Below, piece by piece: positions 1,600 through 8,374 of a DNA stretch of 64,000 bases (position 1 is its first letter; each line of letters opens with the position of its first letter). Source of the DNA: Roseivirga spongicola (lineage in GTDB: Bacteria > Bacteroidota > Bacteroidia > Cytophagales > Cyclobacteriaceae); assembly GCF_001592965.1 (NCBI RefSeq), contig NZ_LRPC01000001.1, positions 992,001 through 1,056,000 of the forward strand, given 5' to 3'. The position numbers were made by a program, and so were the translations under genes. A model generated the notes under the pieces. That model did not search any database. It had not been told where the DNA came from and worked only from the letters and a program-made list of their open reading frames with translations.

Positions 1600-4500
1600 A
1601 TGTTTACTTATCAAGTTAATAAGGCATGTATAATCAGGGCAATAACTTTTTGCTCGTTAATGGTCTTATGTCTTTCCTTAAGGTCTCAAGATTTTTCTAA
1701 TAAAAAGCTAAAATATGTAAGGGATACTTCTGCTTTTACTAAGGCAATAGATTTTCACAGCAAAGCGAAATCTGCTATAAGTAAAGGTCGCACAGATGAG
1801 GCGATAACAAACTATTTGGCTACAATCGAGGAGTACAATTCCATTTATAACTCTGCTAAGGATGCTGGTGATTATGAGTTGGCTGTTAATGCTCTGATTG
1901 AAAAAGCTGACATAGAAAGAAGAATCTATTCTTATGAGACTCCTTATGAGACTTTATCTGAAGCAAAAGAGTTATTAGAAAGCCATATTCCTTTAGATAA
2001 TTTTCTGTGGTTCAGGACTTACCTTTCCTTCGGTCAGGTGACTCATATAGGTGCGGACTATTATCGAGCGACCAGCTATCTAGATTCCGCTCAAATATTA
2101 TATAGTAAGTCCATCACATATGATAGTGCCCTATATAGTGATTTTTTAGAGTATAAGTTCTATGGTTACCTATACTCAAATAAGAGTATAGACACTGTTC
2201 AAAAGTACATCGACATTCGTTTGATTTGGGAGAATGAAGAACAGAAAAGAGCTCCTAACCCTGAAAACTTAATGTATCTCTTGGAGGATTATCCGGATAT
2301 TTATAGTCAAAAAGGTGAGTATGACATTGCCCTAGCTTATGCAATAAGTAACTATAAATACTTTAAACAAAACATTCAAGCAATGAATAGTGCTAGGTTT
2401 GGAGAGGTGTACTACGACTTGTCTCTGGCATTGTTTCGCAAAGATCAATTTGAAACAGCTCTAGAAATAGTAGATGAATATCAGAATGCAGATGAGTCTA
2501 TGTTGAATAATGAGTACTACGCTGGAATGATCTCTTTAGTAGGACTTATTTATAACGAGATGGGTGACTACACTCAGTCTATTGAGTACTTTGAAAGGTT
2601 CTTAGATATGCAGGCTGCATCTTTTTCAGAGAGAGATCAGCAGAATCAAAAGATTGCTAGAGCCACTGCTTTCCTAAATATGGGAATTAATCTATATGAA
2701 TTGGGAGAAACAGAAAAAGCTATCAGTAATTATAATCGCTCTTTAGAAGAGATGAAGGCTATTGTCGACTTTCCAAGTAGTGTATTAATAAACTGTTACA
2801 GGTATATAGGGGATTTTCAGGTAAGAGAAGGGAATTGGAAAGAGGCCTTAATTAGTTACGATAGTGCATTAAGAAACACAGAGTTGAAGTATCAAGATGC
2901 GGTCTTAGATTTTCCTAACAAGGATAGTATATCTCGATTTTCTCTAGAGTCGTTAACTATCCTCAAAAAAAAATCTAAGGCTATTTTCAATAATTACGAG
3001 CAAGACCCAATAACCTATCTCGAATCAGCAATCAATTATGTTGATCATACTCACGAAAGAATTAGAGCGAATAGAGACGATCTATATAAGTCGGATGGAA
3101 AACTATTCCTAAGTCAATTTTTCAAGGAATTGTATGAAACTGGGATTGATGCGAGTTTCCAACTTTTTTCTATAACTGGTGATGAGCAATATGCATGGAA
3201 AGCTTTCAAATATGCGCAACTAAGCAAGTCTAATCTCTTTCTAGAACAAGAGAAAGATTATAAGGAGTTCACCAGTTCAGATATACCTTTCTCACTTAAA
3301 GAAAACTATTATTTAACTACGGCAAGGTTAGACAGTTTAAAGGGGATACTTTACAATACGCTAGATAATTCAGTCACAGGTGACTCAGTTCTCAGGTTGA
3401 GCGAACAAATCATAACATTAGAAGATAGAACAGCCTTTTTGAAAGATAGTATTTCAAAGAATTATTTAAAGTCACCTATAGACCAGTATGAGAATCAGGC
3501 GATAGATAATTTGGAGTCAGAATCACTTTTAATTGAATACTTTTATGGTAATGACCACATTTACAGCTTTGGAGTCAATGCAGGTCGAGAAATTGTTCTG
3601 AATAGAACAGAAAGTGACTCACTACTTAAGAGTAATTTAGAAGGGTTTTTGAAAATAGTTTCTAATCCACCAGATTATGAGAGCTTTGATGACAATTTAA
3701 AAAGATACAGGAGATTTGCTGCAGATTTATACAAGAGGCTCTTAGATCCAATTCTAGAAATGCAAAAATCCAGACCTGAAGAGTTAGTAATTGTAGCAGA
3801 CGAATTTTTGACAAGAGTTCCTTTCGAAGCTTTTTTAGTAGATGAAAATGTTGGCAACACGTTTTGGGACTTCGATTACCTGATCAATTCATTTAACGTC
3901 AGATACTTAATCTCCTCAAATGTATCTAAGACTGCATCTTCTACTATGTCTAATGATTATAAAATTTTAGGAATAGGCTTCAGTCAGGTTGATAAGAGAG
4001 CTCAATCCAGACAAGGAGCCTATGCTTCCTTGCCTGGAACAGAGAGGGAGATTCAATTTTTAGAAGCAAGTTTTGAGGGTGATTATTACTTGGGTGAAAG
4101 GGGGTCAAGGTCAAGGTTCCTGACGGAAGCAAGGAATTATGATATTATACATTTAGCAGTCCATGGAAAGGCAGATGAAAATCGTTTTCAATCAAGGCTT
4201 ATTTTCAATGGAAAGGACAGTGTTTTAAACACAAATCAGCTCTATTTAGCCAATATAAAGGCAAAGCTCACGGTACTTAGTGCTTGTGAGAGTGGTAAAG
4301 GACAAATAGAGTCTGGTGAGGGTACTTTTAGTATCGCCAGAGGTTTTGCGATTGTTGGTGTTCCAAATATTGTTATGAGTTTATGGGAGGTGAATGATCG
4401 TATTACTTCTTCTCAAATGGTTGAGTTTTACAACAATTTCCTAAGTGAAAAACAAGACCTAAATTCTTCATTGAGAAAGGTAAAGCTAGATTATATTAAA

Positions 4501-4680
4501 GACGGAGACTCTTACCTTAGTCACCCATATTATTGGGCTAGTTTTATACATGTTGGCCAGAATACTTCTCTTGAAAAAAGCTTTATTGGTCAGAAATGGA
4601 TGCTATACTTAATTGGGTTATTCTTTATAATTGGTGTGATGATTTTTGTAAGCGCAAAAAAAAGAAAAGGAATCCAATAG
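1600..4680 (+). CDS. TPR-repeat CHAT-domain (caspase-like) membrane protein
   Basis: 1026 residues from the ATG at 1600. An upstream GTG at 1537 is in frame, but 1600 puts a signal-type hydrophobic stretch (IIRAITFCSLMVLCLSL) near the N-terminus. Residues ~35-500 are tetratricopeptide-like helical repeats (for example YNEMGDYTQSIEYFERFL). The C-terminal third is a CHAT domain: the dyad is visible as AVHGKAD (His855) and LSACESGKG (Cys896), followed by GVPNIVMSLWEVND. A C-terminal transmembrane helix (~995-1015) ends in lysines. CHAT proteins are clan-CD peptidases related to caspases and separase; TPRs usually recruit substrate or partner. The gene converges on an ECF sigma/TPR anti-sigma pair, an arrangement that suggests but does not prove a shared pathway. 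Confidence 0.85.
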   Translation: MFTYQVNKACIIRAITFCSLMVLCLSLRSQDFSNKKLKYVRDTSAFTKAIDFHSKAKSAISKGRTDEAITNYLATIEEYNSIYNSAKDAGDYELAVNALIEKADIERRIYSYETPYETLSEAKELLESHIPLDNFLWFRTYLSFGQVTHIGADYYRATSYLDSAQILYSKSITYDSALYSDFLEYKFYGYLYSNKSIDTVQKYIDIRLIWENEEQKRAPNPENLMYLLEDYPDIYSQKGEYDIALAYAISNYKYFKQNIQAMNSARFGEVYYDLSLALFRKDQFETALEIVDEYQNADESMLNNEYYAGMISLVGLIYNEMGDYTQSIEYFERFLDMQAASFSERDQQNQKIARATAFLNMGINLYELGETEKAISNYNRSLEEMKAIVDFPSSVLINCYRYIGDFQVREGNWKEALISYDSALRNTELKYQDAVLDFPNKDSISRFSLESLTILKKKSKAIFNNYEQDPITYLESAINYVDHTHERIRANRDDLYKSDGKLFLSQFFKELYETGIDASFQLFSITGDEQYAWKAFKYAQLSKSNLFLEQEKDYKEFTSSDIPFSLKENYYLTTARLDSLKGILYNTLDNSVTGDSVLRLSEQIITLEDRTAFLKDSISKNYLKSPIDQYENQAIDNLESESLLIEYFYGNDHIYSFGVNAGREIVLNRTESDSLLKSNLEGFLKIVSNPPDYESFDDNLKRYRRFAADLYKRLLDPILEMQKSRPEELVIVADEFLTRVPFEAFLVDENVGNTFWDFDYLINSFNVRYLISSNVSKTASSTMSNDYKILGIGFSQVDKRAQSRQGAYASLPGTEREIQFLEASFEGDYYLGERGSRSRFLTEARNYDIIHLAVHGKADENRFQSRLIFNGKDSVLNTNQLYLANIKAKLTVLSACESGKGQIESGEGTFSIARGFAIVGVPNIVMSLWEVNDRITSSQMVEFYNNFLSEKQDLNSSLRKVKLDYIKDGDSYLSHPYYWASFIHVGQNTSLEKSFIGQKWMLYLIGLFFIIGVMIFVSAKKRKGIQ

Positions 4681-5763: not shown

Positions 5764-6303
5764 TTATTGTAACAGTCTCTTAATTCTTTGAATGCACTTG
5801 TACTTCAAGTTTTTCACCGTGTTCCCATTCTTATAACCTAGTATTTCAGCGATCTCATCGTTAGAAAGATTGTTGAAGTAGAACAGTCTTAAAATATCAG
5901 CACACGGGTTTTGGAGGTTTTCAATAACGCTTTTTATCCGATTGATTTTTGAATCGGAATCTTGTTGGGTCTCATCAAGCTCTTCTAGAAGAAGATGATC
6001 TTCATATTCTTCGTTAAAAGAAAGTTTAGAGTCTCTTCTGGAGTCGGATAACAACTTGTTTTTGCCAATGGAATACAAATAAGTTTTTATTCCAGCGTCA
6101 TTCATTTCCTCAATTACATCTTCTAGAACGTTTTCATAGAAGGAGAGAATGGCGTATTGAAAAATGTCAATTGCCTGCTCATAACTACATTTATGTGAGT
6201 AAGTAATCCATTTGATGAAACTTGGTCGAAACTTCCGATATATTTCCTCTAGGGCTTCCTTATCACCAGCTTTAAGCCGCAAGATCAACGAGTTTTCACT
6301 CAT
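5764..6303 (-). CDS. ECF-type RNA polymerase sigma factor
   Basis: 179 residues. Sigma region 2 is at ~25-90 (IFQYAILSFYENVLE ... TYLYSIGKNKLLSDSRR) and the region 4 helix-turn-helix at ~125-175 (CADILRLFYFNNLSNDEIAEILGYKNGNTVKN). The ending KCIQRIKRLL is typical of Bacteroidota ECF factors. It is the first gene of a two-gene operon with the membrane anti-sigma-like gene. The upstream region carries the bipartite motif also found in front of the divergent response-regulator gene, so autoregulation is likely. Confidence 0.9.
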   Translation of the reverse strand: MSENSLILRLKAGDKEALEEIYRKFRPSFIKWITYSHKCSYEQAIDIFQYAILSFYENVLEDVIEEMNDAGIKTYLYSIGKNKLLSDSRRDSKLSFNEEYEDHLLLEELDETQQDSDSKINRIKSVIENLQNPCADILRLFYFNNLSNDEIAEILGYKNGNTVKNLKYKCIQRIKRLLQ

Positions 6304-6315
6304 GCTCTCTTCTCT

Positions 6316-6345
6316 TTAGTGATTTTAAAGTTGAAATGTCACCCA
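6316..6345 (-). promoter_or_regulatory. Predicted ECF promoter of the sigma/anti-sigma operon
   Basis: On the minus strand TGGGTGACA (6345-6337) is followed after exactly 12 nt by AATCACTAA (6324-6316), 12 nt before the sigma-factor ATG. The same two blocks at the same spacing occur on the plus strand at 6473-6502. A -35/-10 pair read by the ECF factor it precedes is the simplest explanation. Confidence 0.65.
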
Positions 6346-6472
6346 AAGGAGAGTGAAATTTTTTCAAATTTTTTTCAAGCATAGGTTTTTATAGAAAATT
6401 ACTACTAATGAGAATAACAAATCTAGGTATGATTATATCTCGGGAGAAAGTTAAAAATAATTTGTTGGAAAT

Positions 6473-6502
6473 GGGTGACAATTGCTTTTTCCAATCACTA
6501 AT
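6473..6502 (+). promoter_or_regulatory. Predicted ECF promoter of the response-regulator gene
   Basis: TGGGTGACA (6473-6481), 12 nt, then AATCACTAA (6494-6502), 18 nt before the ATG at 6521. All 18 block positions match the minus-strand copy in front of the sigma gene, while the 12-nt spacers differ, which argues against a simple duplication. Confidence 0.65.
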
Positions 6503-6520
6503 TGATACAAGGGTGAAGTT

Positions 6521-7024: not shown

Positions 7025-7099
7025 TTCTGTTCAATAACTTGCTTTCTATCAATTGTTAATTCAATAGCCATCAGCTATTTTTGGCACAAACATCTAAAA

Positions 7100-8374
7100 A
7101 TGGCCAAAGACAGTTTAATCTTTGATTTAATCAGCAAAGAAAAGGAAAGACAAACAAAAGGTATCGAGCTTATTGCTTCTGAGAATTTTGTTTCTGATGA
7201 TGTAATGCATTCAATGGGTTCAGTGCTCACAAATAAGTATGCTGAAGGCTTACCGGGTAAAAGATATTATGGTGGTTGTGAAGTTGTAGATGAAGTAGAA
7301 AACATTGCCATAGATAGAATTAAAGAGTTATTCGGAGCCGTTTGGGCTAATGTTCAACCACACTCTGGAGCTCAGGCCAATGCTGCTGTTATGTTAGCCT
7401 GTTTGAACCCAGGCGATAAAATCTTAGGTTTCGATTTATCTCACGGAGGGCATTTAACCCACGGATCAACAGTAAACTTTTCTGGAAAACTCTATCAACC
7501 ATTCTTCTATGGTGTAGAAAAAGAGACAGGCCTTATCGATTGGAATAAGGTAGAAGAAACTGCTAAAAAGGAAAAACCTCAGATGATTATCTGTGGAGCC
7601 TCGGCATATAGTAGAGACTGGGATTATGTGAGGCTTCGTGAAATAGCAGATTCTGTTGGAGCTATTCTGTTGGCTGATATTTCTCATCCTTCAGGATTAA
7701 TTGCTCGTGGTCTTTTGAATGATCCGCTTGAGCATTGTCATATTGTAACCACCACCACTCATAAAACCCTCCGTGGACCTAGAGGAGGTTTAATTATGAT
7801 GGGAGAGGATTTTGAAAACCCTTGGGGTCATTCTACTCCAAAAGGTCAGGTAAAGATGATGTCTCAATTATTAGATGGTGGTGTTTTCCCTGGAACTCAA
7901 GGCGGCCCACTAGAGCACGTCATTGCAGCGAAGGCTGTAGCTTTTGGAGAAGCTTTGAGTGATGACTATATGTCTTACATTATTCAGGTGAAAAAGAATG
8001 CTCAGGTAATGGCCGAATCTTTCGTAAAGAAAGGATATGACCTAATATCTGGAGGAACAGATAATCACCTGATGTTAATAGACCTTAGGTCTAAGGGATT
8101 GAGTGGAAAATTGGCTGAAGCAGCGCTTGGTCAAGCAGATATCACTATTAACAAGAATATGGTGCCATTCGATGATAAGTCACCTTTTGTTACCTCTGGA
8201 ATGAGAATTGGCACAGCAGCTATAACCACTAGAGGCTTTGTTGAATCAGATATGGAGAGAATAGTAGACTTAATAGATAAGGTACTGGCTGCTCCTGAAA
8301 ATGAAGCAAGCCTTGCCTCAGTAAGGAAAGAAGTTAACGATTGGATGGGTACCTATCCTTTATTTAAAGCATAA
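7100..8374 (+). CDS. glyA: Serine hydroxymethyltransferase
   Basis: 424 residues, full length for the family. It interconverts serine and glycine with tetrahydrofolate, supplying one-carbon units in the cytoplasm. The N-terminal [11 protein letters not shown], the [13 protein letters not shown] motif and the PLP-lysine segment [14 protein letters not shown] (Lys222) are all present. It heads a tight run glyA-tatC-rpiB. tatC starts directly after its stop codon, so co-transcription is likely although the functions are unrelated. Confidence 0.97.

Follow-up and report, generated by a model that had tools for sequence, protein, structure and literature searches.

Introduction

Regulatory systems that pair a sigma factor with a membrane inhibitor, a protease or a response regulator offer the closest described counterparts of the locus reported here. 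In the RpoE-RseA type, RpoE recognizes -35 elements of the GGAAC type. In type III-E CRISPR systems the TPR-CHAT protein Csx29 is reported to cut the inhibitor of CASP-sigma (the Csx30 system) (PMC10028731), and in Porphyromonas gingivalis the response regulator PorX is described as binding the sigma factor SigP, which is absent without PorX (PMC4800418). According to one survey, a class I anti-sigma domain is encoded close to only 6% of the extracytoplasmic function (ECF) sigma factors of the Bacteroidota (PMC7406223).

The Roseivirga locus combines an ECF-type sigma gene, a gene for a probable transmembrane anti-sigma factor, a divergent response-regulator gene and a TPR-CHAT gene. Two copies of a bipartite motif lie in the divergent gap, and we interpret these as promoters that the adjacent ECF sigma factor would read, activating its own operon and expressing the response regulator alongside it; the sequence features described below give this reading a probability of roughly 0.9. 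The sigma factor would recognize GGGTGAC and ATCAYTAA as -35 and -10 elements, would positively autoregulate the operon that it shares with the anti-sigma factor, and would also transcribe the stand-alone response regulator. The TPR-CHAT neighbor, the third promoter and the link to secreted or bacteriocin-type genes go beyond the first-pass annotation of this DNA.

The paired motif in the divergent gap

The gap (6304-6520) is 217 bp in length and is flanked by ATG codons at 6303 (minus strand) and 6521 (plus strand). The first-pass annotation had reported an exact bipartite motif once on each strand, each copy pointing at its own gene, with the same blocks and unlike spacers. All of this is found: TGGGTGACA-N12-AATCACTAA occurs at 6316-6345 on the minus strand, oriented toward the sigma/anti-sigma operon, and at 6472-6501 on the plus strand, oriented toward the response regulator. 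In the window (the whole 64-kb stretch of DNA analysed here) these are the only two matches with up to three mismatches permitted; 100 shuffled windows average 0.03 matches and none reaches two, and the third-best motif match in the window scores 3.9 versus 36. In the complete genome of 4,478,125 bases the full pattern gives four matches at up to three mismatches (0, 0, 2 and 2) versus six for the reversed control, and the signal is thus confined to the exact matches.

The annotated block sequences hold as an exact pair, but their limits are slightly too wide when set against the comparative core, GGGTGA(C/t)-N14-A(T/A)CA(C/T)TAA. Neither the T that opens the annotated first block nor the A that closes it is conserved among relatives, and W-T-T is mostly present two bases past the first block. 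Coordinates are collected in Table 1.

Table 1. Features of the locus and of additional high-scoring motif sites in the genus
Feature	Coordinates	Strand	Details
TPR-CHAT protein	1600..4680	+	CHAT E 3.1e-52
Probable transmembrane anti-sigma factor, 345 aa	4722..5759	-	Weak anti-sigma model matches, tandem position
ECF-type sigma factor, 179 aa	5764..6303	-	TIGR02937 sigma70-ECF E 7.7e-19
Putative promoter, sigma/anti-sigma operon	6316..6344	-	-35 GGGTGAC (6344-6338), 14-nt spacer, -10 ATCACTAA (6323-6316)
A/T tract 5' of sigma-side -35 block	6356..6376	-	Putatively UP-element-like
Putative promoter, response-regulator gene	6473..6501	+	-35 GGGTGAC (6473-6479), 14-nt spacer, -10 ATCACTAA (6494-6501)
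Stand-alone response regulator, 167 aa	6521..7024	+	Response_reg E 4.1e-19
glyA-like gene (presumed)	7100..8374	+	75 nt downstream of response regulator; syntenic in relatives
Extra site, G000 (C1, L108)	gene 1408494-1409327	-	278-aa lipoprotein, then 71-aa membrane ORF
Extra site, G012			263-aa lipoprotein, weakly like the 278-aa lipoprotein (25% over 240 aa, E 6e-5)
Extra site, G004 (C8, L113)			433-aa lipoprotein with DUF6973
Extra site, G006			HlyD, C39-ABC exporter, HTH protein, two GG-leader peptides matching lactococcin G beta and alpha models below cut-off
Extra site, G016			HTH-like protein, membrane protein, two GG-leader-like peptides, C39-ABC exporter
Extra site, G014			111-aa protein with signal-like start and beta-propeller protein

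Conservation of the paired sites

The comparison covered 39 genomes (the window's own, designated G000, and others of its genus, family and order), with 19 belonging to the genus and 20 lying outside it. At zero mismatches the core matches 26 times in 13 genomes, all of the genus, with 23 matches in the sigma-regulator gap and three elsewhere; no zero-mismatch match is present in the 20 genomes outside the genus, and the reversed control has none in all 39. A sigma ortholog (57-100% identity) is present in 16 genus genomes including the window's own. The first-pass annotation had looked to the same gap in related genomes and to a genome scan for corroboration, and both provide it: the two sites, variants included, are present in all 16 ortholog-bearing genomes, and the exact core GGGTGAC-N14-ATCAYTAA occurs three times in 4.48 Mb, each time just upstream of a gene. 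Because genomes of one genus are not independent, these counts are not to be read as probabilities.

The positions of the sites are also conserved. The sigma-side site is 10-12 nt from the ATG in 16 of 16 genomes, and the regulator-side site is 19-24 nt from an ATG in 13 and 16-23 nt from a TTG in the three (G004, G006 and G014) where the regulator starts with TTG; in G007 the regulator start codon is 6 nt before the aligned codon. Genome G003 retains the gene order sigma-anti-sigma-regulator-glyA with a sigma factor of 40% identity and a VDELK recognition helix, versus VKNLK, and neither site is present in its gap.

Recent duplication of one promoter copy was considered as the cause of block identity and is rejected, because the two copies have unlike spacers and flanks and are both maintained throughout the genus.

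Genes of the locus

The sigma protein matches TIGR02937 above the cut-off over residues 16-177 and Pfam Sigma70_r4_2 just under the cut-off (E 5.5e-5), and fits the ECF architecture of regions 2 and 4; a putative -35/-10 promoter of its own, common to the target genes, is present at the level of sequence. A search of PDB sequences with the sigma factor gives a single weak match (E 0.046). The 345-aa protein has two NCBIfam anti-sigma matches (E 2.3e-5 and 2.6e-5) and a TPR_6 match, all below cut-off, together with one transmembrane-like segment (residues 81-99), and its gene follows the sigma gene in relatives too. Its predicted topology would place a part of ~80 aa in the cytoplasm and the TPR part on the other side of the 81-99 segment. 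The response regulator consists of a lone receiver domain with an N-terminal extension of ~38 aa. It is by virtue of its own site that it would belong to the regulon, where the first-pass annotation had placed it, and its promoter may read through 7025-7099 into the next gene, which is presumed to be glyA-like. A PADLOC search with the four locus proteins returned no match.

The TPR-CHAT gene is convergent with the anti-sigma gene. Its product is a predicted protease in which the CHAT domain carries a caspase-like His-Cys dyad, His855 and Cys896 (numbered from the ATG at 1600; motifs LAVHG and SACES), and it has an N-terminal signal/transmembrane segment and a C-terminal transmembrane-like segment. 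The CHAT proteins of four relatives all have the Cys motif, and two of the four (L005, L104) the His motif as searched. The body of the TPR-CHAT protein and the TPR part of the anti-sigma factor would both be periplasmic. As a motif target in the window the CHAT gene is ruled out, since no motif site is present upstream.

CHAT genes and ECF sigma factors

Across the 19 genus genomes, at least 42 of 73 CHAT loci are within 6 kb of an ECF homolog, measured against the 95 genus homologs among the matches listed, with ~0.9 expected under uniform placement (the 73 loci represent 75 matches, with two fragment pairs merged). Thirteen of the 42 adjoin the GGGTGAC-type sigma gene, and 31 of the 73 are near no listed ECF. 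Given this clustering of TPR-CHAT genes with ECF sigma genes, our working model is that a periplasmic CHAT protease frees the sigma factor: proteolysis of the anti-sigma factor on the periplasmic side would probably be the releasing step, and the neighboring TPR-CHAT protein is the best protease candidate. CHAT-mediated release, argued by analogy, is a tentative lead. The TPR-CHAT protein could also be a mere neighbor unrelated to the sigma factor, which we consider possible though unlikely; CHAT is non-adjacent to the GGGTGAC-type sigma in three of the 16 genomes (G004, G006 and G014) and lacks an upstream motif site in the window, but the excess of CHAT loci close to ECF homologs over uniform placement argues against coincidence, as does the presence of CHAT genes beside more distant ECFs (L011, L013, L015 and L085). 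No CHAT match is present in G003, G009 or G017 (the latter two being incomplete), the three genomes of the genus that lack the motif-type sigma.

Seven genomes, G000 (C28:66588), G004, G006, G007, G015, G016 and G018, each have another CHAT gene, of ~958-995 aa, with no listed ECF homolog within 6 kb; these genes are equated by size only.

Exporters of the C39 type are found in some of the same neighborhoods. There are 24 strong C39 loci (E <=1e-15) in the genus, zero to four per genome, and at least seven lie within 8 kb of an ECF homolog, counting ECFs among the matches listed, as well as within 10 kb of a CHAT gene. In three of these, G014:C9 (L174), G002:C3 (L175) and G013:C32 (L178), an ECF sigma gene, the anti-sigma-like ORF that follows it and TPR-CHAT genes are found no more than 10 kb from C39 exporters and GG-leader-like peptides. 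Judged by eye from the sequence, L174 and L175 resemble class I lanthipeptide clusters.

Additional sites and the size of the regulon

The third exact core match in the window's genome is at C1:1409364 (minus strand), 36 nt before a 278-aa ORF. A broad regulon is unsupported in this genome, since loose matches are no commoner than those of the reversed control (4 versus 6, 18 versus 16 and 5 versus 5). In the 19 genus genomes a loose search gives 117 matches versus 56 for the control; 30 are gap sites and seven are extra sites discussed here, leaving 80 versus 56. Scores were computed with a matrix built from 26 distinct 29-mers representing 32 sites, leaving out the spacer-15 regulator-side sites of G013 and G018 (the latter ending ATCACTTA), and ORFs of fewer than 60 aa overlapping a site (e.g. 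at L111) were disregarded. Rescoring was applied to 100 sites outside the gap, a set that mostly omits the two-mismatch matches from the core scan of the window's genome. Six sites score 25.8-34.6, one in each of six genomes, and all are outside ORFs of at least 60 aa, gene-oriented, and 32-172 nt upstream of an ORF (Table 1). The seventh (L149, 23.9) is of the GGGTTAC type and is in G009, which has no sigma match. Scores below it are at most 21.5, mostly for sites inside ORFs where located: of 20 located among the 94 lower-scoring sites, 14 are inside ORFs and six outside (ORFs of at least 60 aa), and three of these six are within 350 nt of a downstream ORF (L112, 19.6; L149, 23.9; L154, 11.6).

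The genes behind the six top sites are of the secreted or bacteriocin type. The C-terminus of the 278-aa lipoprotein is hydrophobic and rich in glycine and cysteine, and a single-sequence search of the other 38 genomes found no relative. The weaker of the G006 sites (C12, L112; 19.6) precedes the gene for a 515-aa lipoprotein, which is 71% identical to the 433-aa lipoprotein of G004 over the first 274 aa, with nothing significant thereafter. Polymorphic toxins have a constant front and an exchanged tail, and the two lipoproteins appear polymorphic-toxin-like in this respect. GG-leader peptides and a C39-ABC exporter lie behind two of the six top sites (L110 and L111). The window's genome itself yielded no C39 locus, which speaks against a general bacteriocin role, as do the lack of relatives of the 278-aa lipoprotein and the ten ortholog-bearing genomes that show no convincing third site.

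The regulon thus looks tiny. It would consist of the gap promoter pair in each of the 16 ortholog-bearing genomes and, in six of these, a further one or two promoters that are lineage-specific and serve secreted or bacteriocin-type genes. That the third and further sites arise by chance, with the regulon restricted to the two divergent transcription units, is quite unlikely. Ten of the 16 ortholog-bearing genomes do lack a convincing third site, the 278-aa lipoprotein has the isolated standing noted above, and real genomes contain sites scoring 18-21.5 inside ORFs; but the range of 25.8-34.6 exceeds every located intra-ORF site (highest 21.5), and a single simulated 9-Mb sequence, generated from the window by a third-order Markov model and equivalent to about one genome where 19 were searched, has no site scoring 18 or more. 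The six sites are moreover all oriented toward genes, two head C39-exporter operons in spite of the scarcity of strong C39 loci, and the related lipoprotein genes of G004 and G006 both have a site.

Promoter-like character and proposed -35 specificity

Several features of the sites fit a promoter: the near-fixed distance to the start codon, the A/T tracts, the tolerance of one nucleotide in the spacer, and a -35 letter that tracks region 4.2 of the sigma factor. All 16 sigma-side sites and 11 of the 16 on the regulator side have a run of at least six A or T within 30 nt upstream, compared with 4% of window 30-mers. Thirty of the 32 sites have a 14-nt spacer, and the other two, both on the regulator side (G013 and G018), have one of 15 nt. 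A spacer-15 search of the 19 genomes gives 12 matches versus four in the control, comprising these two sites, one before a paralogous sigma gene (G016:C2), and nine others, of which two were located (L191 and L192), both inside ORFs. The regulator-side -35 block is GGGTTAC in G007 and GGGTGAT in G008 and G010; the last two genomes have AACACTAA in both of their sites, which favors the promoter reading. Paired change is not universal, which counts against it: in G005 and G007 the second block has AACA on the sigma side and ATCA on the regulator side. Another counterpoint to the promoter reading is the 10-12 nt between the end of the sigma-side -10 and the ATG, which implies that transcription would start so as to leave a leader of only a few nucleotides.

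Paralogous sigma genes carry variant boxes. Eight were examined in the genus (some being mutual orthologs), and six have a GGTTAC-type box before their own gene, five of these with a -10-like string at similar spacing and one (L172) with the box alone; the remaining two have a GTTCAC-like box. At distant ECF loci (28-36% identity) a GGTTAC box near the start and a -10-like string are present in 12 of 19 distinct loci, L083 being a repeat of L013. Region 4.2 reads GNT, GGT or GKT in 16 of 16 orthologs, and at the same position 16 of 17 aligned GGTTAC-type relatives, selected because their box was visible, have Asp or Glu; the exception is L013, with GGGTTAC and Phe. The change from Asp to Asn, Gly or Lys is a candidate to explain why the -35 element has G in place of T, and the relation is a correlation among related sequences, not proof.

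The ECF paralogs at L169, L171 and L085 belong to a further class and have a GTTCACATTTTACC box before the sigma gene, a putative third promoter type.

An alternative reading of the blocks is that they are operators of another regulator, bound as a dimer at GTGA-N16-TCAC-like half sites. The window blocks do form an imperfect dyad on one reading (GTGA ... TCAC) and are very close to the start codons, but the first block is steady, with GTGAC in 29 of 32 sites (GTGAT twice and GTTAC once), whereas the second varies (CACT/CATT, ATCA/AACA), and dyad symmetry is therefore not kept. The 15-nt spacer of two regulator-side sites, the loss of the sites in G003 where the sigma factor has diverged, the variant boxes before paralogous sigma genes and the upstream A/T tracts also count against operators, and we consider this reading very unlikely. 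It is less probable still that the sites, although genuine ECF promoters, chiefly serve a different ECF sigma factor of the genome, as, for all the ECF paralogs of the genus (up to 21 per genome among the matches listed) and the cross-talk common among ECF sigma factors, the motif tracks the GGGTGAC-type ortholog genome by genome, the eight sampled paralogs have other boxes, and G000 has only three matches to the sigma query among those listed. Binding by the adjacent sigma factor is thus the preferred reading of the paired sites.

Discussion

The promoter reading defines the exact promoter grammar of one subfamily of ECF sigma factors within the Bacteroidota, and it points to a residue-base pair through which paralogs could be kept specific. 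It also connects ECF sigma factors with TPR-CHAT proteins encoded away from CRISPR loci, and it suggests that modules of this kind govern antagonism between bacteria. In its most extended form the model is a CRISPR-free TPR-CHAT switch, in which a membrane-anchored, periplasmic, caspase-like CHAT protease would cut the TPR-bearing transmembrane anti-sigma factor, and the freed ECF sigma factor would amplify itself, make a dedicated response regulator, and switch on loci for antibacterial peptides or for lipoproteins resembling polymorphic toxins; its insulation from paralogs would come from one -35 base (T to G) matched by one region 4.2 residue (Asp to Asn). Taken whole, including the protease, the targets and the insulation through the -35 element and region 4.2, this model is speculative and somewhat doubtful. 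The full-text literature searched, with the main ECF reclassification outside its scope, contains nothing joining ECF sigma factor, CHAT domain, anti-sigma and Bacteroidetes, and a full-text search likewise has nothing joining bacteriocin, extracytoplasmic function sigma and Bacteroidota.

The Cas7-11 effector has RAMP-type domains. A search for PF03787 RAMPs (Cas7-type) gives no match in the window's genome and is positive in four of 14 control genomes, and nothing in the window's genome thus points to a type III-E CRISPR effector. The locus is nonetheless similar to the CASP-sigma/Csx30/Csx29 system in having a TPR-CHAT protease gene beside an ECF sigma gene and its inhibitor, and in having few promoters, some within the locus itself; it differs in that the CHAT protein and the anti-sigma factor here appear to be membrane-bound with periplasmic bodies (PMC10028731).

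In common with PorX-SigP, the locus ties a Bacteroidota ECF sigma factor to a response regulator, and that precedent establishes, for this phylum, binding and support of an ECF sigma factor by a response regulator. In contrast to PorX-SigP, the shared promoter is the only link here, the regulator is a lone receiver domain, and the proposed SigP motif differs from GGGTGAC/ATCAYTAA (PMC4800418).

The operons with C39 exporters bear comparison to lactococcin G-like two-peptide operons, in that the two L111 peptides match the beta and alpha models (E 4.4e-6 and 7.4e-5) and accompany a C39 ABC exporter; they differ in that the L111 matches are below the curated cut-offs, and in belonging to the Bacteroidota and standing behind an ECF-type promoter. 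In overall plan the locus resembles the RpoE-RseA type, with a sigma gene followed by that of a probable membrane anti-sigma factor, a -35/-10 promoter of its own and an A/T tract upstream. It departs from that type in its GGGTGAC -35 element, in its very few promoters, and in the divergent response regulator that has the same putative promoter in 16 of 16 genomes.
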